From Neelides folsomi (Eukaryota; Arthropoda; Collembola; Neelipleona; Neelidae), in assembly GCA_034687125.1 (NCBI GenBank), contig JAQGBZ010000045.1, positions 1-64,000 of the forward strand: DNA of 64,000 nucleotides, read 5' to 3'. A program made the translations under genes and the position numbers. The notes under the pieces were generated by a model that saw only the letters and a program-made list of their open reading frames with translations, ran no database searches and was not told the DNA's origin. This document shows, piece after piece, positions 1,961-46,100 of the stretch (position 1 is the stretch's first letter; each line of letters starts with the position of its first letter).

Positions 1961-4900
1961 ATGATTAAACTGGTAAGACACTATTTTGAAACTTTTTCAC
2001 CTTAAAAAACCATCCCAGAATTTAAAACCAAACTTATCACCATTTTCTTAATCAAATCCTCAACCGAGAGATTTAAACCTTTATGTCCCCATCCCTAATC
2101 TTTTATTATCTTGACACTCAACCTTCCCCACTTTACCACTTAAGAAAATCGAAACTTTAGAAGTTAAAAATTTAACGACTCCAACCACAATTTGGAAAAG
2201 GCGTTAAAAGAAATTCGAAAATGAAAATGATAATTTACATGTAAAATTCTACTTTTGATTGAGAGTTCATTTTTCATTTTTTTCTCATTTACATTGTAAT
2301 TAACTGAATTACATGTATAAGTTAGTATACCAGTTGGATTAGGATTCTTCCACTTTCCTCCTTTAATTTATAATATGTATTCATTATCCTGACCCGTCAC
2401 ATCAGATCACAACACATCAGCAATGATGGCAAAAATTTCGCATATTAGAAACTTTTCATTGACTTTTGGCGTCACCATAACCTGAGTGAGATTTATATGA
2501 AAAACAGAAGTTTGTATGAGTCGAGTGATTGACGTGTGTTGAGTGTCGTCTGGCCCTCATCAAATTTTCCTAATTGAATGGCGGTTGGTGTGTTTTGATA
2601 AAGAGATTTGAGGTCTCTGAGGAAGAAAGTGGAAGTTGGCAGGAGTCGCATAACTTTTAATAATATTCGTGAGGGATTCTTGGAGAAGAAATCTGGTGAA
2701 GAATCGAAAGGGAGAAGGTATTGTATTTGCCTTGTAGTTCAATAGTGCACGAATTCTCGCCAATTGAATACGGAATGAGACGAATAGCGTGAATAGTTTA
2801 GCGTGTAGCTCTGGCAGCTCTTTGTTGTAAATGAACCAGCTTGAATTAATTGAATCTCCGAGTTGATCTAATGAGATTTTGGTGTTCCGCAGTGCCTCCT
2901 CGCCCTGGTCGTGGGGGTAACATTTGCAGAACCTCCGTCGTCGTACGGAGCTCCTTCGGGATTCTCTGGAGGTAACAATATTAACAATAATGAGGGGGGA
3001 TTAGAGTCTGGTATACTCGACGCTGAGCTCCTTGAGAAGATTCGGTCCATCATCACATCATCAACAGGATCTTCGGGAACGAGTGGGAGCTATGGGGCTC
3101 CGAGTGCAGCTTACGGAGGCCCAGTTGGACCTTCCTCTGGATCCAATTCTGGTTACTCGGCTCCTTCCACTGGGTCGAGTGCTGGAGGATATTCAAACTC
3201 TGGTAGCCAACAAGGAGGATACTCTGGAGGAAATCAAGGGGGGAACCAAGGAGGTTACTCCGGAGGAAACCAAAGAGGAAATCAAGGAGGATATTCCGGA
3301 GGAAACCAGGGAGGAAACCAGGGAGGAAACCAAGGAGGTTACTCAGGCGGAAACCAAGGTGAAAACCAAGGAGGAAATCAAGGAGGATATTCCGGAGGAA
3401 ACCAAGGTGGAAATCAGGGAGGTTATTCTGGTGGAAATTCAAGTGGCTCAAGAGGAAACCAAGGAGGGTATTCATCTGCAGGCTCTAACAACAACCAAGG
3501 ATACTCTGCTCCTTCTGCAAACCAGGGAGGATATAGTGGAGCTCAACAAGGAGGATCAAGCTCAAACCAAGGGGGTTACAGTGGTGGTTCAAGCCAAGGG
3601 GGTTACAGTGGGGCTCAACAAGGCGGTTCAAGCCAAGGTGGATATTCTGGAAATCGAGGAAGAAATCAAGGTGGATATTCCGCTCCAGCCACCAACCAAG
3701 GATATTCCGCACCAGCTGCAAACCAAGGATATTCTGCTCCAGCCACCAACCAAGGATATTCTGCACCAGCCACCAACCAAGGATATTCTGCACCAGCCAC
3801 AAACCAAGGATATTCCGCACCAGCCACAAACCAAGGATATTCCGCACCAGCCACCAACCAAGGATATTCCGCACCAGCCACAAACCAAGGATATTCCGCA
3901 CCAGCCACAAACCAAGGATATTCCGCACCAGCCACAAATCAAGGATATTCCGCACCAGCCACAAACCAAGGATATTCGGCGCCTTCAACCAACCAAGGTG
4001 GATACAGTTCCGGTGGATCCGGATCTTCCCAAGGTGGTTATTCTGGAGCAAGTGCCAATCAAGGTGGAAACCAAGGTGGATATTCGAGTGGTCAAAGTTC
4101 AAACCAAGGAGGATACTCTGGTGGTTCAAGTTCTAACCAAGGAGGATACTCTGGAGCATCGAGCAGTCGTGCACCAAGCGCAAATCAAGGTGGATATTCT
4201 GGTGGTCAATCAAGTGGTGGACAAGGGGGATACTCCGGTGGTTCAAACGGTGGGTATTCGGGTGGAAACCAAGGAGGATATTCTGGAAGTCAATCAAGCG
4301 GTGGACAAGGAGGATATTCCGGAGGTCAATCAAGTGGTGGACAAGGAGGATATTCCGGAGGTCAATCAAGTGGTGGACAAGGAGGATACTCGGGAGGTTC
4401 AAGCTCAAACCAAGGAGGTTATTCTGGTTCAGGATCCGGAAACCGTGGATCAAGTGGAGGACAAGGTGGTTATTCGGGTGGTTCAAGCGGAGGACAACAA
4501 GGAGGATATTCCGGTGGTTCATCAGGAGGAAACCAGGGTGGGTATTCTGGTGGATCAAGCTCGAACCAAGGAGGATATTCGGGTGGTGGAAACCGTGGAT
4601 CAAGTGGAAGCCAAGGTGGTTACTCCGGTGGTTCAAGTGGTGGACAAGGTGGATATTCGGGTGGATCAAGCTCAAACCAGGGTGGATATTCTGGTGGGTC
4701 CAGTTCTAACCAAGGAGGATATTCAAGTGGAGGAAACAGAAATCAAGAATCAAGGCAGCCAAGCTCCTCTTATGGTTCTCCATCAAACAGTAAATTTTTT
4801 ATCATTATTCATTCATAACCCTTTAAGCTTTTAAAACATTAATCCCCTATTAATTTTTTAATTTATTGATAATATGCCAAATCATTTCTTCACATTACGA

Positions 4901-7890
4901 TTACTACTATTAAAACATTTTTTCTTATAAATACCAATTATATGATAACTGCTTTACATTATCCTTAGATCATTATCATAATTATCTGTATTACATAAGT
5001 ATTTAAGATTCATACTTAAGTACTTGTATCTGCATGTATGTATGAGAAAAATTCTATTGTACAGTAGTTATTAATTTAAATAATTTCAACAGGTCCATCA
5101 TCAAACTATGGTACCCCAAGTCGAGCTCCTGCCACAGCCACAGTCAGCAGTTTCACTAATGGAGCCGCAGTTGGTTCAGGCTATTCAACTGTTCCTTCTT
5201 CCGGAGCAACTGGAGGTTATTCGGGTGGAAACACCGGCGGTTCATCTTCAGGTGGTTATTCTTCTCCATCTACTTCTTATGGTTCCCCAAGTGGGTCTTC
5301 TGCCCCGAGCACATCATACGGATCCCCATCTTCTTCATCTGCCCCGAGTTCTTCTTATGGGGCTCCTTCCGGTTTAAGTTCCTCAACTCGAGCTCCCTCA
5401 GCAGCTCCACAAACAGGTTACCCATCAGGGCAATCTTCCGCCGCCCCACAACAATCTTACGGAGCTCCTTCAAGTTCCTCAGCTCCGCAATCTTCCTATG
5501 GAGCCCCAGCAGCTTCCTCTGCCCCACAATCTTCCTATGGAGCCCCAGTCGCTTCATCCGCCCCGCAATCTTCCTATGGAGCTCCATCAAGCTCATCTGC
5601 CCCACAATCTTCCTATGGAGCCCCATCAGGTGCTTCAAGTGGAGGGTACTCAGGAAGTTCTTCTGGAACAGCTTCGGGTTATTCATCCCCTCAATCTTCC
5701 TATGGAGCCCCAGCAGCTTCATCAGCCCCACAATCTTCCTATGGAGCTCCTTCAAGTTCCTCAGCCCCACAATCATCATACGGAGCACCATCAAGCTCCT
5801 CTGCTCCCCAATCTTCTTATGGAGCCCCATCGGCCTCATCAGCCCCACAATCTTCCTACGGAGCTCCAGCCGTTTCAAGCGGTGGATATTCAGGGAGTTC
5901 TTCTGGATCAACTGGAGGTTATTCGGGAGCTTCCTCCTCTGCTGCCCCACAGAGTTCATATGGCGCTCCATCATCAAGCGGTGTCTCAGGTGGCTATTCA
6001 ACAACAGTCGGAACATTCACAGCCCCATCGTCTGGTTACGGAGCCCCAAGCAGCTCTTATGGAGCTCCCGCTTCCTCATCAGCTCCTTCATCCAACTACG
6101 GAGCTCCAGCAGCTTCATCAGCTCCTTCGGCTAACTACGGAGCCCCAAGTTCTTCATCAGCTCCAAGCTCCAGCTACGGGGCTCCTTCTTCCTCTGCCCC
6201 GCAATCTTCCTATGGAGCTCCTTCATCTGCAGCTCCAGCTTCCTCATATGGAGCTCCATCATCAGCTCCACAGAGCTCATATGGAGCGCCTTCTTCCTCA
6301 GCTCCAGCTTCATCATACGGAGCTCCAACGGCTTCTTCGGTGAACTCTGCTTCAACTGGAGGATATTCAGGAGGTTCAAACGGAGCTTCAACAGGAGGTT
6401 ACTCAGGAGCTCCAGCAGCTTCTTCAGGAGGATATTCGGGTGGTAATAACGGAGGATCCTCAAGTGGAGGATATTCAGGAGCTCCAGCAGCTTCTTCAAC
6501 CGGAGGATATTCGGGAGCTCAGGCTTCATCAACCGGAGGATATTCGGGAGCTCAAGCTTCCTCAACTGGAGGATATTCGGGTGGAAATAACGGAGGTTCC
6601 TCAAGCGGAGGATATTCAGGTGGAAACAATGAAGCTTCATCATCGTCAGCTCCACAATCATCTTATGGAGCTCCTGCAGCTTCATCCGCTCCACAATCTT
6701 CATACGGAGCACCAGCAGCTTCCTCTGCCCCACAGTCTTCTTATGGGGCACCAGGAGGTTCGTCAGCTTCGCAATCTTACGGAACTCCCGCCGCCACACC
6801 ATCAGCAAGTTACGGAGGGTCATCAAGCAATTCAGGCTCTTCCTTCTCAAGCCCTGCTCAATCTCAATCTTATGGAGCTCCTTCGGGAGGATCTCCAGGA
6901 ACCTTAGGTGGATATTCATCACCTTCCCAACCATCGTCCAGTAAGTTCAATTCCTTTTATTTTCTTACTTATTATCATATTTTGATTAAATCACCTTATA
7001 GGTACATATGGTACTTAGGCCCATACGCATATGCAAATATGTAATGATTATTGTTGAGTATCGCTATATGGGAGGTTCATGTAGGTAAACATAGTAAGCA
7101 TAACTTACATAGAGGACGATGGCATACATATGATAAGCACTATCATTATTATTATGATTGATGTTTAGTAAACATCTCAATGTAGAATTCAGTTGAGATC
7201 TTGTTCCAATGTATAATTTATATGTTTTACATTTTTTTCATTCAATTGGATCAAGTTTAAATAGGAAGTTAAAGAAAAATAAAAGTTAAAAAAACCGGAA
7301 ATTTCAACCTACATTGAACTCACGAGGTGAAGTGCATCCTTTTAGTTCATATTGAATTGTTGATGTTTTGATGATTATAATGTCAGCTGCATTGGTTTAA
7401 TGCCAATATATTCATAAATAAAAAATTTTAGCATCTAAAAACTAAAAACTGCAATTAATAACTCGCTCTCAAGTGAGATGGAAATCAAACAATGTCCATT
7501 TTAAAGGTTGAACTGGTCAGTTTCACTAAAAAATATATTCACTCTCTATTTGGTTTACAAAAAAACTTGCCATATTTGAATTAATCAATATGAGAAGATC
7601 ATCCCATGAATTAATTTTTATTGATTAAATTATTTTAATGCTTAGAAAGTACATTTACAATTTGTTTTGTAGGTTACGGAGTTCCCCTTGCAGCTCCACT
7701 CGGATTGAACGAGATTCGCGGTAGCAGCAGCAGCCCAAGCTCAAGCTACGGAGCCCCATCAGGTCAACAGCAATCTTTCTCGGCCCGCGGGGGTGGCGGA
7801 GTCCAAATCGAAGGAATTCAAAGAGCAACTCTTTTAGCCAACTTCCAACAACAAGGAACTTCATCAAGGACATCCGGAGGATATGTCTAA
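1961..7890 (+). CDS. Secreted resilin-like elastomeric structural protein
   Basis: Four exons: 1961-1972, 2893-4789, 5093-6940 and 7673-7890, all GT-AG, giving 1,324 aa. Exon 1 encodes only MIKL. Exon 2 completes a signal peptide (MIKLCLLALVVGVTFA, cleavage expected before EPP). An intron inside the signal peptide after about four residues is typical of arthropod cuticular protein genes. A short non-repetitive helical patch (LDAELLEKIRSII) follows. Exon 2 then carries NQGGYSGG-type repeats and twelve NQGYSAPAT units (residues 262-370). Exon 3 carries SSYGAP-type repeats. Exon 4 is a non-repetitive tail of about 70 residues ending in GGYV. The protein is rich in Gly, Ser, Tyr, Gln and Pro, and almost lacks charge and Cys. 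Tyr-rich YGAP and GYSGG motifs are those of resilin, where tyrosines form dityrosine cross-links. No Rebers-Riddiford chitin-binding domain is visible. The role inferred is an elastic cuticle, adhesive or silk-like matrix protein. Confidence 0.9.
3190..4740 (+). repeat. Coding GGYSGG/NQGG repeat block
   Basis: Exon 2 is built of degenerate units such as NQGGYSGG, SSNQGGYSGG and SSGGQGGYSGG, read in one frame. Unit length varies from about 8 to 12 residues. The block is interrupted by the uniform 27-bp array at 3664-3990. GYSGG is the second elastic motif of insect resilin. Confidence 0.85.
3664..3990 (+). repeat. 27-bp coding minisatellite, 12 units
   Basis: Twelve in-frame units encode NQGYSAPAT. 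The first unit is 30 bp because of an extra Gly codon, and eleven units of 27 bp follow. Inner units are almost identical, differing mostly at TCT/TCC and ACC/ACA third positions. The second unit reads APAA and the last reads APST with different codons, so variation is concentrated at the edges, as expected for recent internal expansion. Confidence 0.95.
5269..6900 (+). repeat. Coding SSYGAP repeat block
   Basis: Exon 3 consists of units such as APQSSYGAPSSS and APAASSAPQSSYGAP, interspersed with GGYSGG units in its second half. YGAP is the first elastic motif of insect resilin (typically within PSDSYGAPGGG). Units are degenerate at DNA level, unlike the uniform array in exon 2, so this block looks older. 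Confidence 0.85.
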
Positions 7891-10998: not shown

Positions 10999-13900
10999 TT
11001 AATTTGTTAATGTTTGTTTTGAAAGGAACTCTGCAAGGTTTTTGGAACTCCCCATTGTATTCAACATTGTTCCATAGCACATCTCTAGCTGTGGTTTGGG
11101 GAGCTTTGGATCGCAAGTGATCTCATGGAACAAATGGACAAGGTGAACATCAACGGCCCGGAAAATCGTTAAGTTTGTCTTTGAAATGAATTTGTCAAAG
11201 AGAGCGACGTCTTCTTTTCCCCAGCCTTTGATCCACGTGTCAAATCCTCCTGGGACGGAGCGAAAATCGGATTTGTAGAAACTCCCAATGCCGAACCCGT
11301 AGCTACGAAAATAACCGAATTCAGCATTTATTGGTCCCCGACTCCCGTTCATTGTGACATTTGTTCCTGACGCTTTGATGAACTTTGGGTCATACTCGCT
11401 GAACACGATCGGGAAATACGCTTGGGATCCTCTGACTGTATTAAACAAAACTCGAACCAAGGCCTCAGACGTGAAAGAAATGTCAATGTCGATTAGGAAT
11501 AATAAATCCGATTCTTTGCATTGGGAAATCCCCGTTTCGAGCCCAACGCCACGAGAAAAATCTCCGCTAACTTGAACGACTTTAATTACACATTGAGACG
11601 GAAGCTGGGCTTTAATTTGAGCCAATAGGGAGATAAACATTGCGGACTTTTCTTCCACTCCGAAATACACAAGGACAAGATGAAGCTCGTGGTTTTCCAA
11701 CCCGGGATTCTTTTCCAAACACACTGATAGAAAATTGGAGAGGAATCGTTTGAGTGGGCCGAATTTGCCATATAAAGGGACAATCAATGATAAGTTTTCT
11801 TCCGATTTATTGACATCATCCGATTTGAGTGTTTTTTCAGGGGATCGGAACAAGCGGAGCTGAAGTGGAGAAAATGGCCTTTGTACGTAAATGTGCCGTC
11901 GGACGGGAACGGTGATTTTTCTCCCTCTGTATCGTTTGTATGTGAGAAGGAGGTCGAGGACGAGATCTTCTCCGAATAATGGAATAACACGTGAGTAGCC
12001 GTATAAAACTTGTTTGAAATCTACGACACGTCCGCGACTCCGAGAGAATCCATTTATTATTTCCATTACCTAAGAAAATTACAAATAGGGATTTTTTGTT
12101 CTTCAATCATTCTCTGCAAATATTTCATTTACTTCTCTCACGACATCCTGAATCCCCTCTTTAGCCCCAGCGTCAATCTTCTGCCTCGGATTGGTAAATT
12201 TTAGCGAATTGAGTCCTTTCCTACCAATGTAGTCAAAAACGTGAAGTCCTGACCATTTTTGGAGACTTGGTGGAAGTCCTGTGATTTAAAAAAATCTTTT
12301 TATATTCTTTCAATTCGTTTCACTCTGACGGATCGGAAAAGCAATAAAAATTCCAAAGACTGATTTCATTCCTTTCAATCGGTTTTTTCGTCACCGATGA
12401 CCAGCTTTACGACTTTACTTTGGGAGAATAAGAAAAATGCATATTATGGATTGGGGTTCTTTTCAAACTCTCAGGAAGAAAAATTATCTTGGTTTTATCT
12501 CCTTTCTTTTGAAAGAATGAAAAATGATCTGAAGTGCACAGGTTTATAAATAAGTCCCAAGTAAGTTTAATATTTAATAGGTTGAGGAATACCCGGGTAA
12601 AAATAACTGGAAGTTGAGTAAAAATGCGGTTTTTTTCATCTTAAGGATAATGAATTATGAAATGAAGAATCATTTATTTCCCTCACCAACGAATTCATCA
12701 GGGACGTTTGTGTGTAAAGGCGATAGAAAAATCCCACTGACTTCATCATTCTTTCTCAATTGATTTTTCACCATTAAAATATCTCGATTAAGAAGAATTT
12801 CTTCGTATAAATTGTCTTCAATTTCCAAGCCCTAAAAATTACCAAATGTGAATACAGGTATATATGTAAGATACATATATATGGTAAGGCTTACATACAG
12901 GTAAGTAGTATACCTAGATAGTAGATACATGAAATATACCAAATACTAATATTTTAGAAATTGAAATTGCTCAATTATTTTTTTCTTTGATCTCGATTTT
13001 AAAAGGAACGAGAGAATTTAATTGAAAGGAGTTTTACTTTAATGTACGCATGAAGTCTATAAAGATTTTTGAAGTTCTTAATCGGATGGAGTGTGATTGC
13101 TTTATGAACTTCTCTTTTCTTCAAATTGCCCGTAAATGCGTTTCTCCCACTCGAATTATGATAAAAGATTGACTGCATCTGTACAAAAGAAATTTAATTT
13201 TACTTTAAGGAAATCGACCATTAATGAGAATATAAGTAAGGGTTAATGACATTCGCCATAATCGACAATAATGACATTACAAAAATTGTAAATTGGCCAA
13301 TTACATAAAATACTCATAATATGTACATACTTCATAAGCCCAAGTGCAAGAAACGTTCGCGAAGCGATGAACGCATCTTCCGACCTCCACGTCCTCGTGT
13401 GTTGATAACAACGAATTGAGACATGATTCCACATTGGGACCAAAGAGGCGGAGCGCAGATTGACTGAATAAAATACCAGGACCTCCCATACAAAAGTTTT
13501 CATCATTTTGGAGATTCAAAGTTCCTCGTTCGGCTCGACTTCCTCGTCCAGCTTGTCCAATGAAATGAACACTTTTGGAATTGAGTCCTCGTAGAAATCG
13601 GGCAAGTTTTGACCCACGGACATAAACATCATCATCGGCTCTCATAAACCATTCATATTTGTCACCATATTCTTCATACATATGTCTGTATAAATAATAT
13701 TTATTGTATAATTGAACTCATACCTAATTAAATATTTACATTTATATTTTAATCTATATTAAATGTACTTTTAAATTATTTTTAATTACTTGAGCATCAT
13801 GAATGATTTCTTCTGAGGTGGATAAGAATCATCAACATTTTGTAAATGTACAAGTTCCATTCCATTAACTTTGGTTTTCTCTTCAGCCGGTAAAGTAACA

Positions 13901-14247
13901 TTTTGACCGGTGAAAAACACAACTTTACCGGGAATATCTTTTGCCCAAGTTTCCAACACGGATCTTGCCCTCGTTGTGAGGAATTTATTAGCCGTCATAA
14001 CTCCAACAAACAGGAAACCACCGGCTTTTGTTTCAATCTCTTTCTTCTCAAAATCTTCATTAATATTGTGAGGGCCGAACACACCATTACTACTAGATGT
14101 TGATTGGAAAGAATCAATTTGAGGAATCTGATTAATCTTACAATGAGATCCTAAAAATTTCAAAATTATCGACAGGGAAAGTCCAATTAAGAATCCAAGT
14201 AGAAGTGGGAGAGAAGATGAATATCGTCTCCATAATCTTCTCCCCAT
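10999..14247 (-). CDS. CHSY1: Chondroitin sulfate synthase (CHSY1 type)
   Basis: Six exons in transcript order: 14247-13790, 13685-13331, 13178-13038, 12831-12687, 12278-12133 and 12069-10999. All are GT-AG and in phase, giving 771 aa against about 802 in human CHSY1. It is a type II Golgi enzyme with a short basic N-terminus and a membrane anchor at about residues 13-33. The first, beta-1,3-glucuronosyltransferase-like domain carries FLFVGVMTA, DDSYPPQKKSFMMLK and WFMRADDDVYV, with the metal-binding DDD at residues 170-172. The second, GalNAc-transferase-like domain carries DID at residues 609-611 and GWGKEDVALF from residue 697. Family knowledge: it alternately adds GlcUA and GalNAc to the chondroitin chain. 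An in-frame GTG lies 12 bases upstream, but the ATG at 14247 gives the usual MGRR-type N-terminus. The 3' end faces the elastomer gene. Confidence 0.96.
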
Positions 14248-17200
14248 TAAATAATACACGTGGAATGAAACGATGATTTTTATAGGATTTGCTATAAACT
14301 GTACACTGTCACTTTCATTATTGTATATCTACAAATATCAATACACGCAATACAAATACAAAATTCTTTTATTTGCTTATTTAATGGTTCTAATGTCAAA
14401 AGAAGAAAATGAATGTGAAGAAGTGTGAAAAATTAAGAGTCTCAAGAGGATCCGCCTTTCTTCTCATTGAGCCTTTAGAATCATTAAATCTTTTTCTTCC
14501 AAGGGGCAAAGGGACGTGGGTAGGCATAAGATAACAACTCATGTTATTGAATATGCTATATATGAGAGTATATGGTACTTGTTGTATCTGTATGTACATT
14601 TACAGTTTACATTGTGCATTAAGAGTTCAATATGTGACAATACACTATTGATACTTTTGACTTTGGGGAACTTATCATCTTAGAATGACAATATATTTTG
14701 TTCATACAAATAAGTATGTATGGTTATTTAGTTATAGTTATAAAATAGTTGTATGTATTTACTTTATATCAGTACATAAGAAGTCCATATGACCAAATTC
14801 ATAAGAATGTGTAAATAAATAGAAAGGAATTTAATGAATCGAAAACTTTATTAATTTCAACCGTTCTTTTCATCTAACTACATACAATTAACAACTACAC
14901 CATCAAGACTCGTCCATCTTAACTTTTAAACATCATAAGAAGTAACCCGAAAAGGAGAAAAAATATTTTCGCCTTTAACATTTCAATTTTTCGATCTAAA
15001 AAGACGACAAGTCCTAAGACAAGTTCGACTACTAATTAGTATTCCTCAACGCTAAAATATTTAAAATTCCACGCAGAGATTATGCTTGAGGAAAATTCTA
15101 ATTATCGAAATCGCTCAATCTATCATTATGCAGTTAATAATTCAATTTTAATTAATAAAACACTCAACGAGACACGGAACAAGTTTATATAAAAAACGAG
15201 GTAGATATCGGTTTACATACACATCTGCATTTCTGCTATGTTTAAATAGCGGATATTACTTTATGCATATTAAATATTTTATAATATTATTTTAAACGAT
15301 AGTTAACAAAGTAAAGAACATTAATTTAATAATCTATTGAATATTCTTGATTCTAATTAAAAAACCATATTAAAAGCCTAGTGTATAAAACTGAGTTATT
15401 TCATGTGATTGTACTGGTAATAATTAAATGGATGTGTATGAAATTGGTTTAAGTATTTAAAGGTTGTTTAATCTTATGTTGTACATTTAAATGTGTGTGT
15501 GTTGATTCTTAACTTTAATGTTCATGAGACGATTAATAGCAAAATGGAGAAGTTGAAGGTAATATGGAAAAAAATCTAATACAGTTTATCATTTGATTTC
15601 TCTTTTGTCAATCTAATACTTTCAAAATCTCTAAAATACGTTACAAATTAATAATGATAACGAGTTGTACATATTTTAAAAACATTCTCGCATGTACCAT
15701 AATTAATATAGTAAATATTTTAAATACCCTTAAATATAAATATTTATTTATTTATGAATAAAGCACTACTTTAGTTCTAATAATAAACTCCGAAACGTTA
15801 CAAATATCTCTCGTAGTTTTCAATCCCAATTTCTCATTTAACTCTCTATGTCTCTATAAATGTAAGTAGTACGTAGCGGTTTTATAATTACTTTTATGTA
15901 ATAAATGGTGAGCAAAGTTGTAAAAATGCAATAAGGCTATTAAATTAGTTTGTAATTCATTACGAACCACATCCATTTCGCATATAGAACGTGCATGTGA
16001 AATTCATAGTAGAGTAAATCCTGAGTTTTGAAGAATCAGCCGTATGATAATCGATTACAAACGCTTATTTCATCATAAGTCGATTATAAATTAAATAACA
16101 ATTAATAATAAAATTAATAATATTATTAAATATAGGAGATAAGTAAAATTAATAATAATATGATTTTATGCTCATTTCAAGAGACATATTAGGATTCAAT
16201 GAATGTGATAATTAACATTAGACTTGCTCATGAATAAATATTACATTATAGCTAGTAGTTAAACTTGTAAATACATAAATACAATACGACAGTGCAATTG
16301 TAATATTAAAATTTAAATATTGATTTTCATAGACCAATTCTATAGCTAATATTGTATTGTATGGTATATAGTTTGTATTATATAAAACTTTAACCCTTTA
16401 ATTCCATTCTAAAAAGAAATGGAAAATAAAAGTAAAATCAAAAGCATAATTAATTTCTGATACTAAATTTAACATCAAATAATTCAATAATTTTTTAATT
16501 TTGAATAAAAACAAATCATTAAATTTTATAATTAAAAATCCAAATCGAAAATTTAATTTAAACAAAAAAATTACAATTTATAACAAAATTTTTCATTCAT
16601 TTAATCCAATTAAAACAATTTCAGAAAATAATTTTTAAAAACAGAGGAAATCTCGTTGAAAATTTTATGTAAAAATTATGTAAAAACTATTAATTTGAAT
16701 AAAACAGTTAAATTCAATAACCAAAAGCTTATAATGTTAATAGTGAATATGTGTCAAAATATTATACGAAACAAATGGAGAATCACAAGTCAAATCCACT
16801 CAAGTGAATAAAAATGAACCAAAATTTTCCAAACTTGTTGAATATATAAATAATCTACTATTTATATTAGATGATATAATTGTACAATTATAATGTATTC
16901 GTATTTATCTAAATGTATTACATAATGCATAATAGTAATGCTTTTAATGTTTGTAAAAGCTTCAGTTTGTACTTTTGAGTAAAATCTTCGTTTTGTCCTC
17001 GAAACCTACAGTGAAGACTGCAATCGTTAAATTTAAAATATTATTTTAGTTTAAATCTTTTAATTCCTATTCATGTACATGTAGATGTATAGATATTTTA
17101 TCAATTCTTAAATATATGTAAATCGTATAATAATAATAATAATAATAGTTGGTTATTTAATAATAATGCTAATTAGTACGCGTTTAAACTAGAGTCATTT

Positions 17201-19283: not shown

Positions 19284-22200
19284 TCATCGTCTTATGAAAT
19301 TAGGAGGATCATGACGATGATTTTCTGCTTGGTGATCAATTGGGTTTCTTACAAGCCGCATGAGCAGAGGATCTTCAACGCCATCATCTCCTGGGCCACC
19401 AATTCCTCCATTACTCATCGGATGACCACCCTAAATTAAGTTCAGTAATTTCATTATTCCCACATCAAAAGAATTAAAATGAGAGTGGATCTACTAATAA
19501 ATGTATGTAGCAAACATACCTTCGTGTCCAAGTGCGTGTCAGTGAGCGAGTCGAGGGCTTTCATCTCAACACAATTCAGAGATTCAAGAGATCTTTTGTT
19601 CCTCGGCCCATGACCGTTACCATTTACGTATACTAAAATAAAATAAAATATTGAAAAATTGAAAAATAAAAATTGCCAAAAATGGTGAATCAAAAGATTA
19701 TATTACTTGATGGATCCTGGCGCGTGATGAGTGAGAAGCACCGATGGCGACACATGATAATCGTCCCACAGATCAATACGCAAAAGACACTTATAGACAC
19801 TCCGAGGATAATCCCTTCAAATGGAATAATTACAAATTAGCATTATACACAAAATACATTTAAATTTTTATTTTTCAAGATTTGCAAACATTTCGAACTG
19901 ATGAATTTATTACCTAAATGCTTTTGTTGATGAGCAAAGAAGCCGTCGTTGGTTGCAGGATCATCTTTCATTTCTGGTTCTCCTCTAGTGCTTTGTTCTG
20001 ATGTGTTCGGAGGCTTCCTCAAGAAAATAGTCACTTTGACTGGATCTCCAAATGGTCCAAGACCTGCTGAATTCTCAGCAGAAACTCGAACTTCATAATC
20101 AACATTTGGAGGAATGCCTTCCAGAGTTCCTTTCGTCTCGTTAAAAACAAGACGTTCCCAAACGGTTTTGTTGTATTCACGATATTCAAGAACGTAACTC
20201 GTTATTACACCGTTGGGGTCTGAAGGTTCTACCCAAGTCACTTCAATACTCCTATTATTCGTGCTATAAGAAACGCTCAAAGGAATTCCAGGTTCTGAAA
20301 TCAAACGATAATTTAAAATACTGTCAAATTATTCAATATTTTAATATTTATCTTTTAGAAATTGGTGTTTTTACGAAAATCATTATTTATTTTTTAAAAT
20401 TCTTACTTGCAGGCAGAGTTCGAGATTCGACTTTCAGTGAGAAAGGTGCCGTTGGTGGTGAATTATTCCCGAATGCAACGGCGAATTCATAGAGTGTGAA
20501 TGGCGCCAGGCCATTAACATCAACGGAACCACTTGTACTAATTTAATAAAATAACATTAAGTAATGCTCCGGTTAATATTAAAAATCTAGATTTTACCTA
20601 GTAATGAATTTGTGTTCATTTGAGTCAGCTTGATTGTACTTAACGGTGTAGGAAGATGCGGCATTGTTGGTTAATTCAATCCATGTCACATGAATTGCAC
20701 TTGAACTGATAATACAAAAAGAGTTATCAAACAAATCATAAGACCTTATTGACTTGTTCTAATAAATATAACATGATATGCTATACTACATTTCAAATCA
20801 TTCCTAATTGTATACAATATACCTTATTGGAGTTGCTGTTATTCCTAGAATATTTACAGCTTGACCGTCATCGTCGTAGTGCCCATTGGAGCTAAGAGTA
20901 CGAATTGTTTTTTCAACAACAATAGATTCCCAACCATCTCCAAAGATTTGAGCAAAAACTTCATACGACGTGCCTTCTTCTAAAATAATACCAAAAATAT
21001 TTAATTAATTATGAATCAAACCTTTCAAAAATGATAAGGCAAAAATATTAAATAAATTGATGTTCTTACGTAGATTGAGGATGCTCATGTTTCTTTGAGC
21101 ATGGTCCAAGATATAGAAAGGACCAAAGGAAACTTGTTCTCCAATTTCATTTATATAAGTGGAGTAAGAGATCCGGACTCCCTTGGCAGTCTTCGACATA
21201 ATTTCATCCCAAGAAACTCGGATTCCTTTATTCATCCCTTCCAAGAAGAGATTCGGAGGAGAAAAGTCAATTCCTTCCATGCTCTCATTTCTCTTAGGGA
21301 TCCTCGTCCAAGGAAATAATTCTTTACGCAAAGGCCATCCAATCGGAGTTGAAGGCAAAACCCGAACTTCATATGATGCTTCTTCATCTAACCCTATTTC
21401 ATGAATTTTTATTATTTATAATAAATTCAATGTTCTCCAACAGAATAAAATTGAATAAATAAAGCGTAAAATTAAATTCACTATCATAAAAATCCTGGTA
21501 ATAAATTAAATGCTAACATTAAGTAAACAAAATATTTACGTTAAATATTCTTACTTAATAAAAAATAAAAGTATTAAATTACCAGTGAGAAGCGTTTCAG
21601 TCGAAGATCCATTAAGGTACAAAACATTGTTGAAATTCCCATCCGTCCTCCTCCAAGAGACTTTGTAAAGAGTGATTGGCCCTCGTGCTTCTGTTTTCTT
21701 CAAAGGAGCCCAACGAACCCTTGCTGTCCCAATCGGGCCAACCAACTCAAACTCAAGTGGACGAGGGACATTTAAAGGAACTGAAAACGCATTCAATTAT
21801 TAATTAAATTGCCAAATTAGGTATACCTATAAAAATTACTCAATTATTTAGCTTAGAGAATTATTTTAATTTACCATCAGCAAGGGTTGAACAAGTGAGA
21901 GTTGGGGATTGGGGTGAAGCAGCAGTTCCTGAATATCCTCTTATATAAATGGCATAGTTGGTAAAAGATTTGAGGTCTCGAAGAATATAGAAAGGGCTTT
22001 TCGACACCGACTGCCTTTCTTCGCCTCCATCAACTTCTGTCCAATGGATAGTAAATCCAAGATCCGCCGTCCCAACCCATGATAAGTTCAAGGAACGAGA
22101 AGAATCAGGGATGCATGTGATGCCACTCGGAGCTTCGGGTTCATTGGGACGATTTTCAATTAAAAGCCTTGCAGTTCCAATACCATAAACATTCCCTCCT

Positions 22201-25200
22201 AAAAATTTAGTAAAATTATAAAGGACTGTTTAATAAATTTAATATTAATTTAATATTAAATATATTTCTAAAATAAAAAAGAGTAGTTGACCGTTGGATA
22301 CTAATGAAAAAATATTTACCATGCATAACTTCGCATTGATAGAATCCAGAGTCATTTCTGATCGTATTCGACAATACAAGTTCATTTTGTTTCGTTTTAA
22401 TTCTTCCTTTCCCAGTTTCTAAAACTTGACCATCCTTCAACCATGATAAAGAAAATGGTTGTGGAACGGAACATTCAAATCTAACTGTTTTAGCAGCTGG
22501 ATGATTAACCGAAACAGGGCCTTTAATCAACACCGGACTTCGATACACCAACAGGCTCTGTGAGAATAAAAGCAATAATTATTTCATTGTTACAAATAAA
22601 TAAAAATCGTGTTGCATACCATGTAATTTGAATGAAGGCCGTTGGAAGCTTTGCATGTAAAATTGCCACTCATTCCAGGTGCAATTACAATACGAGCATA
22701 TCTGACCCGGTGTTGTCCTACAAGCGCCCCTTCGCCAATTATAGTTTCACCTGCTTCAATAGGAGTATCTATAATAAAAAAATCCTTTAAAATCCAACTA
22801 TCATGTTATGCATTTAACATTGGGCCATTGATTAAGATTATTTAAAATACCAATGAAATTAAGCCAAGAAATTGTTGGGGGTTGTTTGGATTGAGCTGCA
22901 CAGTCCAAGACTGTTTCTTCATCAGATGCGAGGACGAGAACCGGCGGTAAATTATTAAGAAAAGTTGGGGTTTCACCCAATTCTTCTCTTCTTCCTTCAA
23001 CCACCAAACTTAAAGATCCACGTCGTTCCTTCTTCAAGATCTCATTATGAACGATGCAGCTAAAGAATCATTAATCAAAAGATGGTCAGTTATGAAATAG
23101 TAATTAGAAAATAACACATAAAGTTTAACTTGCTCAGCAGGTTTAAATTGTGCAATTTACCAATTTAGTAAACAAAAAACGTTACCTATAATTCCCGCCA
23201 TCGGTCTCTTCGACGTTAGAAATAAACAAAGTCCCTGAGTAGAGAATATTGTACCTAATAAAAAAGAGAGCCAAGATTAATTACAGCCATTTGTATTTGC
23301 ATAAATAAAAAAGCAATTCCATACCGAGAGTTAAATTCCTGAGAAATATTCTTTTGGCCTTTGAGCCAAGTGAGTTCCGTCGCAAGTACCGGAGAAGAAG
23401 TGATGGGACAGGACAGCAAAGCTGAACTACCCGGAGTAACAATTACATCTTCACCGATTTCTCCTCCAAAAACACCTAAATTAAACAAAAAAATATAAAA
23501 AAAATTAGCAGATTTTTTAATACAGTTTTTAACTCAATCCCTCAATTGCGCACAATAAGACTTCAATTATCCTTCTACGTAGTTTTAGCTTTCTTTGTCG
23601 CATACGTCTTTTTATTTAAAACATTTCCTCAGACTATTCCTTATATAACACAAGTTTCATGTACTAACATTAAGTACTAAAGTCCATCAATGTGTATTAA
23701 ATTGATATCACTGGGTTGTAATAATAGTATTTTATCATTGTCATAAACATTCCATTCCAGTTTGTATATTATTCGTAGTTTTAAGAGCATAAACTCGTAT
23801 AAAAAACTTTTTCTATCTTAAATGAGAATTGACGTAGTGCGAATAAATCTCTTTTGTATTGCTGTTGAATTGGGCGGAATGCGTCCCCAGAGTTCATCGT
23901 TTTACTACGACGACGTAAAGTTTACTACTTTACTATACTACAAGAGCTATACACAACCTTCGTTCTTCCAACTACTTTGATGACTAAAGAAAAATAGTTT
24001 TTTTCATTAAAATGACACTCTTTATTCTCCTTTATCATGCAAATATCATTCAACAAATTCTACTGCTCTTTAACCCATTAAAAATGTAAAAATAATGGAA
24101 CAATTAAATTTTAAGACCAAAGACCTAATTAAATTTTAAGACCAAAGACCTAATTAAATTTTAAGACCAAAGACCTAATTAAAAAAATAAGACAAAATTA
24201 TGATTCTAGAACAAATAAAAAAAACTTATTACTTTAAGACTTTTATTACACAAAATACCTACAATTAGTGAATTAATCGCATATGAATATTTTATTTGTA
24301 TGATTAGATGATAAAAATACCTTTTGAGGTCAATTATCTAAAAGTTATTAAGTTATAACGATCCAAGTCAGCAGAATAGCTAGGAGTAAACGTCATAAAT
24401 ATAAAAATAACGTACCGATGACGAATAGTTGGATGGTTGACGAGGCGACGACTCCATCATGGAACTTTAAAAAGCACCGGTAGGCTCCTTCGTCACTGGA
24501 GTTGTTTCGATGCCGACTTGGTCCCGCCTTGTGTTGGATCTTCTCAAAATGGAGGGATCCATCGGGGTTGATGGAAATTCGGTCATTAAGGCCGACCCGG
24601 ACGCCGTCCTTCGTCCACCATAGGTCGAGGACTCGGAGCCGATCGCTCCTCAGTCTCACAGGACATCGGACATTAAAAGGGCGTCCGCGGAGGGCGTAAA
24701 GGGGGGATCTGACCGAAGAATTTACGCTCACTCCTACATCCTCTGAATTATTTCCTGGAAAAAAAGATTCATTTTAATATTATGATATTTAGTTTAAAAA
24801 AGTTAAATATAACATTTTAAAAATATATTTAATGATATTTAAATTAAATTCATTAATTTTAAATTGACATTCATTGGCGTTAATAAAGCATATATTTATA
24901 TTATTTAAATCGACACTGGTAAGCATATATTGACATTTGGTTCGTTTTTCAAAATTTGCAATTAGGAATGAAATTCCTACAATTACACATTATTAAACAT
25001 TAATTGGCTTCTGCACGTCAAGTTTTTAGATATTTTAATTTATAATTGGACAACATGAACAACATCCACTTTCCCCATTTTAGTACTCGTGTACTTTCCT
25101 TAGTCAAGTCAGTTTGACTTTCTCAAATTCCTATAAATACTGTAAGTATAAATAATACATATAGCAATCTCCAAGCTATAGAATGTATTAACTCTACGAC

Positions 25201-40169: not shown

Positions 40170-43100
40170 TTAACTATATAAAATTGTTTGCATAGATTTG
40201 GCAGGTATTGTTAATTGAATTGAGCCTCTATCTCTGTCAGTTAAAGACACCTTTGCTCCATATGACATCCTGAAAATAAAATAAAAAATAGTCAATTTAC
40301 AACTTACAAGATTAAAAAGTTAAATAACAAAAGTTCCCAGATTTAATTTTCCTCTTTGAATGTAGCTAAATAGATTTTCTATTGTCTTATCCAAGAAATA
40401 AGAGAATTGAAGTTATTAACAATGAAATGTATCGGATTGTCTCATGTAAAGTAACCAGGATTCTCTGGCATTCGAATTCGTAAATAAATAATTCATGACT
40501 TTGGCTCGAAAGAGAACCAAAGTTCAGACTCGATTTTTTACATTACATGACTCCGACGTTCTCAAACGAGTAGAATCGAAGGATAAAAGAGCATTCAGAT
40601 CTTGTTTTAATGCCCATTCGATTCATAAAATCAATTGTGACCTTCGACCCAAGAGCATTAAATCAGATAGGAAATAATATTAAAATTCAAATTGAAACCT
40701 GAAAATCCAAAATTGTTTATTGAGTGTCAAATTAAAATAATTTATAATATTGAATTATAAAATATAATGTACATATTTTCAATAGGTACAGACCGTATAT
40801 GATTCATTTATAAAGTAACATTTATATTTATTGCATTAATTATATTTTGATAGAAATCATTGAATAGAGAAAAAATAGAATTCAATTAATCCAACCGTGA
40901 CTGAATCTTACTTGTTGAGAAAGATGAGAACCGTTGAGTTGTTTGGAGTTTGAAATGCAATGTAATGAAGACCTCTCGGGACCCGAACTCCCGTCATTTC
41001 TATCCTTACGGAATCCGCCGGAACAAATTTGCTCACATGGCCAAACCCATAATAAATTGGCTGTTTGAAGAACTCATCTTTCTTTGGATTGACGATGATC
41101 GCAGCGTCGGCCGCCAACCTCGCCCAATTTGGTCCTCCTTTCATGTCAAGGGCCAAGTTCCAGTCGATCCATCCACTGACCCAATTTTTCATATCCTAAA
41201 TATTCAATTTTATATAATTAATTTTTACATGGAAAATTATATCAGGTATGCATTAATAAATAATCTACATAAGTAATATGATGTAATATGTTATTTTATG
41301 TAATTACATGAATATTGCTGGAAGCAATATTCCATTATACTTAAGTAATATTATTATTCACTTTATAAATTATTTTATTGGAAAAATTGTTAGAAAACAT
41401 TACCCTAATTATTGCTTCAAGATAGGATTCTCCTCTTCCCCAATTTCCGAGACTTACTTTCTCCAACTCCCACGGAAGGAATCCTGAAGGCATATTTAAA
41501 AAGCTATTGCAATATTTGTACAATTTATACTATTTAAAATATAATGCTTTTTATTCATGAAACTCAATACTAATAAGTATGTGAATAATTAAACAAATTC
41601 ACATAATAAAGCTAATTGAATAAACATTCTTTACCTTACTTAATATCTATGTAGTTAATACATAATACATTTGCATGTTAAATACGTAATTAACTTTAAG
41701 GGCAAATATATGTATCTGTTATTTCTAACAATAAGTAGGTAAGTAGAACATTCATATACCATATGTAGGTATATTAAATTGTACAATAATATTGATCTGG
41801 AGTTCATGCAATAAATCTTGAAATTAATGTAGGTCGGTGTGTGCTTGTAATGTATTAGATTAATTGAAGGTACGTGGAGAGTGAATTAAGGGATTTATGG
41901 TCGTTACGCGACTTTCTCTGTTTCCTCCTCATGTCTGTTTTGGACACTTCCACGTGTGGATGAGTTATGAAAGAAAGATGTGTATTTATGTATTTACCAA
42001 GGCACGCTTCCGTCTGCACGATGAAGACGTCTGGAAACTTTGCATGGGTTCGGGACAAAACTTCTGAGCCAGTGAGAAAGTCCAAGTACCAATGGGTTCC
42101 TATGCCGGAGACGTATTTTGACGAATCTTCGTTTCCTAAAATCTGCAGTCCCCGCAATGTCAATAGATTATATAGGAAAGTTTTGATTCAAACTTTTTAC
42201 TCGTAGTCAGTCACAGACGAAGAAGCATTGATTAAAAACACAAGTAGGTCTTTTATGACAAATTGACCTCAATTTTATGCAAAAGTTAGCTAACCAAGCT
42301 GAACGATATGAGAGAAAGAAATTAATTTGGATTTGAGAGTAAATAAAGTTCTCGTCTTTTCTAAAGCTTGACCTTGCAAGTTCTTAAAAACTTTCCTTAC
42401 CATGCTTCAGGGCTAATAAAAAAAGGTAGAGATTGAAAATTTTCTTTCATTCTAGTTATAATATTAAAAGAGTGAAGAGTTTTATTAATTCACCACTAAA
42501 GACCCATTAAAAATCAAAGCGAGGAAATTAGCATTGAAAAGTTTCTTTTAAATGTAATGGGAGTATTAAATTCTTTTAAAAAGTTTGAAATTCATACAAA
42601 ATTATTGTATAAAAATTTTAAGATGCCTCAGGCTGTAAAGAAAGAATTCCGATTGCATGTTTTACTTTCCCCTTTTTTCACCCGCTTTTCCCGTTTTCAC
42701 CCGCTTTTACCCGCTTTTACTTCTAATAGGTATGTTAAAGCATGAGAAAATTCTTTTTTAACAATGCGCTTTCTTTCAAGTTCACTCATTCCTAAAAAGT
42801 AATTTTTAATTAATTTAAAAAAATAATTAATAACGAACCTCTTTCGCCCATGTTGGAAGTGCCCCCTTGGAACGACCATGTAACAATAAAAGTTTAAATC
42901 CAGACAATAATTAATTTATGTTATTTTGCTCTACCTTATTATCGTCGAAAATAAGGATTTTAACGTCTTTTTCAGACTTGTAGTTTTGAATTGCCGGTCC
43001 AAGATGATTTGCAATCCAATTCCTCATATCGTTTGCCTTCCACCCCATGCAATTGAATGGGAATCCAACTACGAAGCCATTAAAAGGCTCGTTCCCTGTC

Positions 43101-46100
43101 GTGACACCCCAAATGTCCACACCAGATGAATCATAGTCTTTAAGGAACCTAAACATCATTCCATTAAGGGCGACCAGAAGAAAAAAACCTTCAAAACGAA
43201 CCTAACAAAATAGTCGGCCCAACTTTGGTAAAATTCCCGCCTGAGAGACCCGGCCCCGAAAAGTTTTTGGTTCGTTTTCATCCAAACAGGAGCAGACCAA
43301 GGCGATGCAACTAAACGAATCTTCCGACTGCCGGCCAACTTTTGAGCCATTCGAATAAACGGAATCTATTCAATTAATTCAAAGTGTTTTTTATACTCTC
43401 AAAATTGACAAAATTAGATTTTAAATTAAAATTATTTAGAAAATTTTACTTTAAGTTGATGATCTTCAGGTTGAAGAGCAAAACGTGTCAAATTGAGATC
43501 AGGTGTGAGTGCGTCGTCGTAGGTATACGGATGGGTGGAGAAATCAGTTCCGCCGATTGGAACTCTGCCCATTGAATACTCAATTCCTCCTTCACCAAAA
43601 TATGATCTAAAATAATATAAAAAATTAAGAAAATATTTCCTACATACCTTAGTATACCATTTATAATTATCTACTACTAAATAATACATTAATTTGAAGA
43701 TCACCATTTTAACTAAATTAAACATTTCGTTAATAGGTAATTAGCGGTAATTTAATACAGGAGTCATTGTTTACTTCATTAGGTGAAACTGTGCAGCTTT
43801 TGATAAAGTTCTAATGTTAATCCCCGCTGCATCAGTGAAGGCTCCACCGAATCCGAGTATTTTCTGGAACGTCCTTTCCCTCCGGACTTGGAAAGAAGAG
43901 GTTCGGGCGGGACGAGGAAAATCCCCAACTGAAATCAAACAAACCACCCGTCTTATCAAATTCCTAAACTAAATCAACTCCCTCAACTATTCCAAACATC
44001 TAACCATCTCCGGTATACAAGATCGGTATAAAATCTATTTCAGACCTTGAAAATACGTGCGTAATAAAGTAATAGTAAATCTTTACTCAAAGTCGATTTT
44101 TATACTTTTATTATATTTAGCCATACACTACAGCCATACATGTACTTTGTAATACAAGGAATCAACGTTCGAGAATCGTACAGATATATTTAGGAATTGG
44201 GATTGGGATGTTTTAAGAGAAATCCAATCATATAGGGAAAAAGTGTACATGATATGTACCATATGTATCGGTAAATACATTAAATGTATAAATAAGGATA
44301 TATTGGATCGGAATAAAAGCAGAGGTTCACTTGTCCATGTTGAGGTATATGAGCTATCAATACGCTTCAGATGTTTATTTGCTTTCCCCACGCGGTTATA
44401 GGGATTGATAGACAGATGAACATCTCTCTTTCTTTCCTCTGCAATCTCTCCTCTCACGATTACATTCGAATCTCATTATCCATAGTATAAAGTTTCACGG
44501 GAAGAATTCCATGAATTTCTCTCCGCAAGTTATAAAAACACAAAATACGAGATTCTCCTTTGATTCTTGGAACTTAACTCTGAAGCTTTATATTTTGATT
44601 AAAATCTTCCTTCGGGTTTTATAAAACCAAACTCCAAAAGTTTCAATCTCAATAGATACTTTTATGAACATTATGAATACACAAAAGCCCCTATCTTGTG
44701 ACAATACTTCTCTCCTTTAATTTTCTCTATTCTTGAACATATTTACAGATTTTTATCATTTTTGGAATATTTTGAGAAATTCTCAATCTGTTAAAAGAAA
44801 TGTATGCAGTAAATGTTAAAGAATCTAAATGAATGCAGTAAAGTGAATAATAAAATATGAATAGAAAGTATCTTAAAACAATAGAAAGTTTAACAATTTA
44901 ACTCTTAATATAAAATGGAGCTCTATAAGATAAATGAATTGAATCTTAAGTTTTTCAACTGGAAGAATGTGAAATTGCAAAATTTGCGTGAGCCAAGAAC
45001 CATTCTGATACTCGGATTAAATAATTTGTTATGTGTTGAATGGGAAATTGATTATACGACTGTTGTTGAACTGAACCTCCATGTAGAGTTTGAATTGTGT
45101 GGAGAAACCTCAATGAAAATAAATTATTTGAACCATGAGATTTAAATCACGTTGATTTGATGGGAGGAGAAGATTCTTCCCAAATCGTTTCAGATTCCTA
45201 TCAAGAAGGAGATTGCCTCTTACTCTCCTCTTAACAACTTTTCAAATTCACTCTTTCCTCATTCCTCCCCATCTGGCCCATCTCTTTCCTCCAGCCTCCA
45301 GATTTTCCTAAAATGAGGCTTTTGAGCCCATTAAGACACATTCATTCATATACGTGGTTTAAAGTTTTTGTGCCGCGGAATGGAAAATTTTTCCCAATTT
45401 GACAAATTGACTTGTAAGTGGGAGGGTCGAGGCCTTACGTTCGTTGAAGAATTCACTCAGGAAGAGTCGGCCTTCTCTTTGGGTCCTTCCGTCAATGGCA
45501 TTTTCCCTCTTCTTCTTCCTCTCCCCGAGTTCTCCATCAATTTCATTCTCTTCGTTGAATCTCCTCTCCGACTTTTCAAATCTTCCTCCTCTTTCGGATG
45601 AAGTGAAGAGGTAGAGGAGTCCAGGTTTAAGCTTCTTCGGAACCGAACTTTCATCGCAGTAGGTTGAGTTGCAAACACAGACAAAACTCCCGCGCCCAAA
45701 GTCCCTCCGGACACAAGGGTAATCTCCGCCACTGGTCACATCAACCCACCCTGGAAGGAAACAAAGAAGAGGGTTGTTGAGAACAATAAAATATACTTTA
45801 ACTCCCCACTTTCCGCCTCACAAAAAAACGGGAGGATCGATGGGAAGAAAGCGTGGGAGAGATAACAACGGCCTTGTTTTTGGAGGATCCTTTAAACCTC
45901 CCCAAAACTTCATCTTCCTCTGCCTTCAACTGCATTTCGATTTCGGCGGGAGTGAGGAATTCCAATAGGAATTGAACTACAATTATAACAACTCCCCTGC
46001 ACGATCCGTTCTCCTGAGAAGGAAACTTGGAGAAGATAAAAGAAAGTGATTTCCTTTCTTTAAATCACATTTTCCATCTTAAATTATGGATTTTCACTCT

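Follow-up and report, generated by a model that had tools for sequence, protein, structure and literature searches.

In pro-resilin of the Drosophila CG15920 type a Rebers-Riddiford (RR) chitin-binding domain stands between two repeat blocks, the order being YGAP, RR and GYS-type, and the criteria for pro-resilin given by Andersen in 2010, as quoted in the part of PMC10743668 cited here, are a signal peptide, short Gly/Pro-containing repeats and the R&R consensus (PF00379). The links formed in resilin are reported to be dityrosine and trityrosine (PMC5082342). Resilin-like proteins lacking the RR domain have also been described. In the sections cited here, PMC10063229 describes Muc91C (CG7709 of Drosophila and AGAP002367 of Anopheles) as a resilin-like mucin of Monochamus alternatus having N-terminal PSSSYGAPA/S repeats, C-terminal GGYSSGGN repeats and no RR domain. 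The Monochamus protein is located in the tracheal apical matrix, where knockdown leads to a thinner matrix and an increased Young's modulus, and polymers made from the A repeat of Anopheles behave like rubber (PMC10063229). The legend of the Muc91C tree in the same report names Myzus persicae, so the known range of RR-less forms may already extend beyond Holometabola. Group IV proteins of holometabolous insects are likewise described, in the cited part of PMC10743668, as RR-less proteins with a PSS[S/Q]YGAP core and a common N terminus, that of resilin (xxEPPVNSYLPPS), and removal of the RR part was proposed as their origin. Domain loss that yields a low-complexity gene lineage had been proposed in 2010 (PMC2932725).

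The gene described here lies in the window, which is the opening 64 kb of contig C45 (274 kb); the genome comprises 75.1 Mb in 840 contigs. Its product shares with pro-resilin, both that of the Drosophila CG15920 type and that of the same genome (C81), the two repeat types, a high tyrosine content and an EPP-type mature start, and differs in having no detectable RR domain between the blocks and in the order of these blocks. Muc91C, as described in the cited sections of PMC10063229, resembles it in lacking the RR domain, in being secreted, as is predicted for the window protein, and in having two long blocks, one of PSSSYGAP type and (in Monochamus) one of GGYSSGGN type; the order in Monochamus, YGAP N-terminal and GYS C-terminal, which is a reported layout rather than a stated criterion, is reversed in the window gene. 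Group IV, within the cited part of PMC10743668, shares the lack of an RR domain, the PSS[S/Q]YGAP core (four exact matches in the window protein), an EPP-type start and more Ser and Ala than pro-resilin. The feature common to Group IV and Muc91C, resilin-type repeats without the R&R consensus, was found together with their repeat core. By eye the N-terminal match to Group IV is partial (EPPSSYGAPS versus EPPVNSYLPPS, with EPP, Tyr and PS kept), and in contrast to Group IV the main unit of the window protein is SAPQSSYGAP and a large GYSGG block comes first.

An earlier note on this DNA had offered two readings, a separate elastomer family or a rearranged relative of resilin. As the literature already describes RR-less insect proteins with both repeat types, a separate family would not be new in kind; the element that appears to be new is the reversed block order, GYSGG first and YGAP second. 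A search of the open-access literature (titles and abstract openings) gave no description of a GYSGG-first RR-less resilin-like protein. The second reading is the closer one, although this gene does not stand alone in its arrangement: another gene of the genome (C704b) has the same arrangement and a third (C61) has a similar one with an RR domain.

Gene structure and repeat content

The coordinates and the 1,324-aa product given earlier held up: the four exons (Table 1) join through GT-AG borders into a single frame of 1,324 codons plus a stop codon. The introns of 920, 303 and 732 bp have phases 0, 1 and 1, as calculated from the exon lengths, and the transcript is predicted to be spliced as modelled. 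The N terminus reads MIKL, then, after the phase-0 intron that cuts the leader, CLLALVVGVTFA, followed by EPPSSYGAPS, which is the mature start at an assumed cleavage site. From the hydrophobic leader MIKLCLLALVVGVTFA (mean Kyte-Doolittle value of 2.8 across residues 4-15) we infer that the protein is secreted. A short patch has a helical moment of 0.86 at 100 degrees versus 0.38 at 160 and is by this measure amphipathic in prediction. The patch with its flanks is present as a single copy in the genome, and the C-terminal tail of about 70 aa has one match in the whole genome, namely itself. The patch and tail were earlier said to cap the repeats, which is true of the tail; the patch is close to the N terminus and comes before the repeats.

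Table 1. Features of the window gene and the modelled sister genes of the same genome
Feature	Position	Strand	Remarks
Candidate TATA box, TATAAA	1876..1881	+	85 bp 5' of the start codon; pattern position alone
Exon 1	1961..1972	+	MIKL, leader start; a phase-0 intron (920 bp) follows
Exon 2	2893..4789	+	Leader remainder, mature start EPPSSYGAPS, patch and GYSGG block; 21 GYSGG, 14 GYSAP, 2 YGAP
Patch GILDAELLEKIRSIITSS, residues 44-61	3058..3111 (approximate, codon range within about 40 bp)	+	
27-bp tandem array	3673..3998	+	12.1 copies, NQGYSAPAT-type units
Intron 2	4790..5092	+	Phase 1, 303 bp; contains ATTAAA 4909 and TATAAA 4926
Exon 3	5093..6940	+	Phase 1-1, YGAP block: SAPQSSYGAP units and some GYSG
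Pfam Mucin-like match (PF16058)	6112..6348	+	29.1 bits versus cut-off 28.7
Exon 4	7673..7890	+	Unique tail YGVPLAAPLGLNEIRG...TSGGYV and stop codon
C81, pro-resilin	L060 1044-3294, contig C81:135600-139600		First coding exon not located
C61, RR protein	L041 6221-7552, contig C61		328 aa as modelled
C704a	L039 4284-5228, contig C704		RR-less; 286 aa as modelled
C704b	L040 705-2097, contig C704		RR-less; 420 aa as modelled

The claim that both resilin repeat types are present in an order swapped relative to insect resilin, with GYSGG filling exon 2 and YGAP exon 3, was borne out by the motif counts. Exon 2 contains 21 of the 26 GYSGG copies and exons 3-4 contain 26 of the 28 YGAP copies (Fisher p = 3e-8), although the segregation of the blocks is strong rather than absolute, exons 3-4 carrying an additional 12 GYSG. 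Most YGAP units (22 of 28) read SSYGAP, the commonest context being APQSSYGAP. When the mature protein was shuffled 1,000 times with its composition preserved, GYSGG occurred on average 0.41 times (maximum 4) and YGAP 0.21 times (maximum 3). At the DNA level the 26 GYSGG copies are spelled in 22 ways and the 28 YGAP copies in 14, which argues that much of the repeat pattern has been kept at the protein level. Chance or a plain DNA repeat was thus excluded as the source of the pattern by the shuffles and the synonymous variety, with the exception of the 27-bp array, which has 92% matches and is far more uniform than the other repeats. The NQGYSAPAT-type unit of this array, absent from the earlier note, is in sequence a hybrid of both repeat types.

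The mature protein is composed of 28% Ser, 24% Gly, 11% Ala and 3.4% Thr, and the 1,324 residues of the full-length protein include 102 Tyr, no His and no Trp. Its sole Cys is residue 5, in the leader, and Lys is found only at residues 3 and 53, so that Cys is absent from the mature chain and a single Lys, located in the patch, remains. Given this composition, tyrosine cross-linking should dominate.

The four exons most likely constitute a single gene. The only Met of the protein is the start codon (residue 1), and as exons 2-4 lack Met, no ATG is available within exon 3 to start a separate product. The frame of exon 3 opens at 5080, directly after a stop codon, all borders are GT-AG with the frame maintained, and no AATAAA is present between 1891 and 7278. 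We therefore consider it very unlikely that the locus holds two separate genes or that its gene model is artefactual, although the model was drawn from the DNA sequence only, intron 2 contains the ATTAAA and TATAAA elements of Table 1 and AATAAA occurs at 7278 and 7417, both in intron 3. These elements leave room for possible shorter forms. Skipping of exon 3, which is symmetric (phase 1-1), keeps the frame into the tail, and hence a form of the gene product lacking the YGAP block is possible.

Searches for the RR domain

No match to the RR family (PF00379) was obtained in a Pfam scan of the window product. Taken alone this null result could be a false negative, because the ordinary hmmscan found no Pfam family in the C61 protein whereas the C61 RR exon by itself scored 53.9 bits with PF00379. 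Presumably Gly-rich proteins such as C61 lose their hits to the HMMER composition filter, and for low-complexity proteins the absence of a domain calls for a filter-free search. A model built from 29 RR stretches of the same genome and run without the HMMER filters gave 80.7 and 48.0 bits on the RR exons of C61 and C81, respectively, versus -2.4 bits on the window product. The six frames of the window (pieces of at least 8 aa) gave at most 4.8 bits, and the two best-scoring pieces were far from the gene. Across the genome PF00379 had at least 39 matches from 43 scored candidates, and contig C45 carries none of those listed. A limit of this test is seen in C81, where an intron splits the RR domain and its second part on its own scored only 11.9 bits; an RR domain split over several very small exons could escape the search. 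The Pfam, contig and filter-free six-frame searches thus revealed no missed RR exon. Hence the earlier statement that there is no chitin-binding domain agrees with the results for the product, the six window frames and contig C45, and the chitin_bind_4 HMM search of the product that had been suggested gave no hit, nor was an RR exon found in the window.

With short Gly/Pro-containing repeats present and the R&R consensus (PF00379) absent, the predicted protein is not a pro-resilin by the Andersen criteria, in the form in which the cited part of PMC10743668 quotes them. Simple loss of a C61-like RR exon is not supported as the origin of the gene since the intron phases do not fit: the C61 RR exon is phase 0 on both sides whereas intron 2 of the window gene is phase 1.

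Sister genes in the same genome

The models of C81, C61, C704a and C704b (Table 1) were drawn by eye from the genome sequence. In C81 the leader is followed by EPPVPPSFRGSGGNYGPP, a YG[AP]P block, the RR domain (61.1 bits for the spliced stretch in Pfam), a few YGPP/YGAP/YGSP units and a final block that is mostly GGYSQGG with two GYSGG, which by sequence is the canonical pro-resilin layout (YGAP, RR, GYS-type). The C61 protein has a GYGG block, an RR domain in its own phase 0-0 exon and then eight YG[AS]P. As this exon is symmetric, an RR-less form of C61 is possible. C61 and the window gene have in common a Gly-Tyr block placed first and a YGAP/YGSP block placed last, but C61 retains the RR exon between the blocks and its units are GYGG, not GYSGG.

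C704a and C704b lie about 4 kb apart. Neither protein matched PF00379 in a Pfam scan, and with the filter-free RR model C704a scored -0.4 bits and C704b was unlisted at E up to 10. C704a has 12 GYSGG and two YGAP at its end, and its C-terminal SGGYGR is also that of C61. C704b consists of EPPPPPGGGYSGG, 14 GYSGG and then 14 YG[AS]P (12 YGSP and 2 YGAP), and matches PF16058 with 58.4 bits. Like the window gene it is RR-less with GYSGG followed by YG[AS]P, but it is shorter, has both blocks in one exon, has YGSP in 12 of the 14 units of its second block and lacks a patch or tail resembling those of the window gene. The mature starts compared were EPPSSYGAPS (window gene), EPPAQGQYGAPS (C704a) and EPPVPPSFRGSGGNYGPP (C81). 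Intron 1 as modelled interrupts the leader, in phase 0, in C61, C704a, C704b and the window gene alike. About 2.5 kb upstream of C704a there is a frame (L039 977-1780) that by eye resembles a piece of reverse transcriptase.

Weaker matches to the YGAP block of the window gene were found on contigs C63 and C325, and C704b used as the query gave further matches on C63 and C527. The C63 frame (L057 1015-2550) has 17 YGAP and no GYSGG; the C527 frame (L043 5929-7038) has SAP repeats and no GYSGG. On contig C123 (L044 4711-8957, minus strand) long open frames, one with PF00379, run into GCSGGGCGG repeats and would encode an unusual RR-type protein with cysteine-rich repeats.

An RR tree (30 rows, minus 8 rows of less than 50 aa) placed C81 and C61 in one five-row branch (99/96) together with L011, L013 and L016. 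The two are not sisters: a single origin was recovered in 9% of bootstrap trees, and 500 of 500 shuffles gave a value as low. The sequences are compatible with a common resilin origin of C81 and C61. By its sequence the window gene belongs to a small group of resilin-related genes that exists beside an intact resilin.

Probable function and alternatives

The window gene probably encodes a resilin-like structural protein, secreted and RR-less, that is of the Muc91C/Group IV kind but has its repeat blocks reversed. The protein is most likely a tyrosine-cross-linked disordered elastomer of the cuticle or an apical matrix, its elasticity, cross-linking and tissue being predictions. In the mechanism we propose, the disordered chain would be released by ectodermal cells and its 102 tyrosines joined into a dityrosine network through peroxidase-type oxidation, with the intervening Gly/Pro/Ser repeats serving as entropic springs. 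As the RR domain is lacking, retention of the protein would depend on cross-links with itself or with resilin partners that carry the domain (perhaps C81 and C61), not on direct chitin binding. This assignment is supported by the open frame through four GT-AG exons, a hydrophobic leader with an intron of phase 0 as in C61, C704a and C704b, the EPP mature start, the four copies of the Group IV core, the SSYGAP form of most YGAP units, the content of Tyr, Cys and Lys, the precedent of Monochamus Muc91C and the PF16058 match of 29.1 bits, although over the full-length protein PF16058 scored 22 bits and missed the cut-off. Arguing against it are the block order opposite to that of Muc91C, the ease with which low-complexity repeats converge, a Ser content such as a glycosylated mucin might have, the lack of any other genome match to the patch and tail, and the room for shorter forms left by the ATTAAA, TATAAA and AATAAA elements of introns 2 and 3.

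Gly/Ser/Tyr-rich repeats are also typical of adhesive, cement and silk-like secretions. A gland product of this sort, resilin-like in composition only, would accord with the failure to find a chitin anchor, but it is made improbable by the presence of the two resilin motifs, by a mature start with EPP and by a leader intron resembling that of the RR-bearing C61. The main rival to the elastomer is a mucin-like role, in which a heavily O-glycosylated Ser-rich chain would form a hydrated lining of the gut, trachea or another surface rather than a rubber. The 28% Ser of the mature chain and the PF16058 matches of this gene and of C704b (29.1 and 58.4 bits) point in that direction, as do the classification of Muc91C itself as a mucin (in the cited sections of PMC10063229) and the caveat of Andersen that mucins with the same repeats differ from resilin by glycosylation (in the part of PMC2932725 cited here). 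However, Thr amounts to only 3.4%, Tyr accounts for 102 of the 1,324 residues and PF16058 falls under its cut-off for the whole protein, and we regard a mucin in place of an elastomer as a tentative alternative; the two roles may coexist, as has been argued for Muc91C.

It is also conceivable, if doubtful, that this is a low-complexity cuticle protein whose repeats arose by convergence, with no descent from resilin. The shortness and biased composition of the repeats fit this reading, a published warning on concerted evolution of repeats (in the cited part of PMC2932725) applies, and intron 2 is phase 1 in contrast to the phase-0 introns flanking the C61 RR exon. Convergence would nevertheless have to account for two distinct resilin motifs in separate blocks and for the EPP...Y...PS mature start.

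Four arrangements are found in one genome: YGAP-RR-GYS (C81), GYGG-RR-YGAP (C61), RR-less GYSGG-YGAP (the window gene and C704b) and GYSGG with short YGAP ends (C704a). A speculative reading is that the resilin repeat blocks are separable modules that were recombined around and without the RR domain, and that a second, Gly-Tyr-first line exists in parallel to canonical resilin, the order having been inverted, and the direct anchor to chitin given up, at least once. In that scheme, and as tentatively, C61 would be the member with an RR domain, the window gene and C704b would be the members without one, and C81 would represent the canonical line. The coexisting arrangements allow one to ask how block order and a chitin anchor each affect an elastomer, and they bear on the age of RR-less resilin-like proteins. 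For materials work, the protein is a natural long block copolymer with a mature chain that has no Cys and one Lys.

Neighboring genes and other observations

Downstream in the window, 11002-14328 (minus strand) contains a chondroitin N-acetylgalactosaminyltransferase-type gene, with PF05679 at 331.4 bits on 11002-12069 and PF05679 plus Fringe on 13304-13717. At 19846-24773 (minus strand) fn3 domains were found in two of three tested frames and Ig-like exons were seen by eye; this gene possibly encodes a cell-adhesion protein. The segment 32018-35893 (plus strand) contains a SCAMP gene (PF04144) and then ribosomal protein S6, the best PDB hits of the latter being 40S ribosomal protein S6 (E 1.7e-33), and 40911-43968 (minus strand) contains a glycosyl hydrolase family 30 gene of glucosylceramidase type (PF02055, PF17189). 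Rfam gave no match in the 64-kb window.

Elsewhere in the genome, odorant receptors (PF02949) gave three matches of 25 to 36.3 bits, and so few and weak matches are, we presume, unlike a winged insect. The mitochondrial tRNA order around cox1 is I-Q-M-W-C-Y-L(UUR)-K-D (ARAGORN, with cox1 identified by PF00115 and nad2 and cox2 by eye); cox1 and cox2 flank Leu(UUR), as is typical of Pancrustacea.
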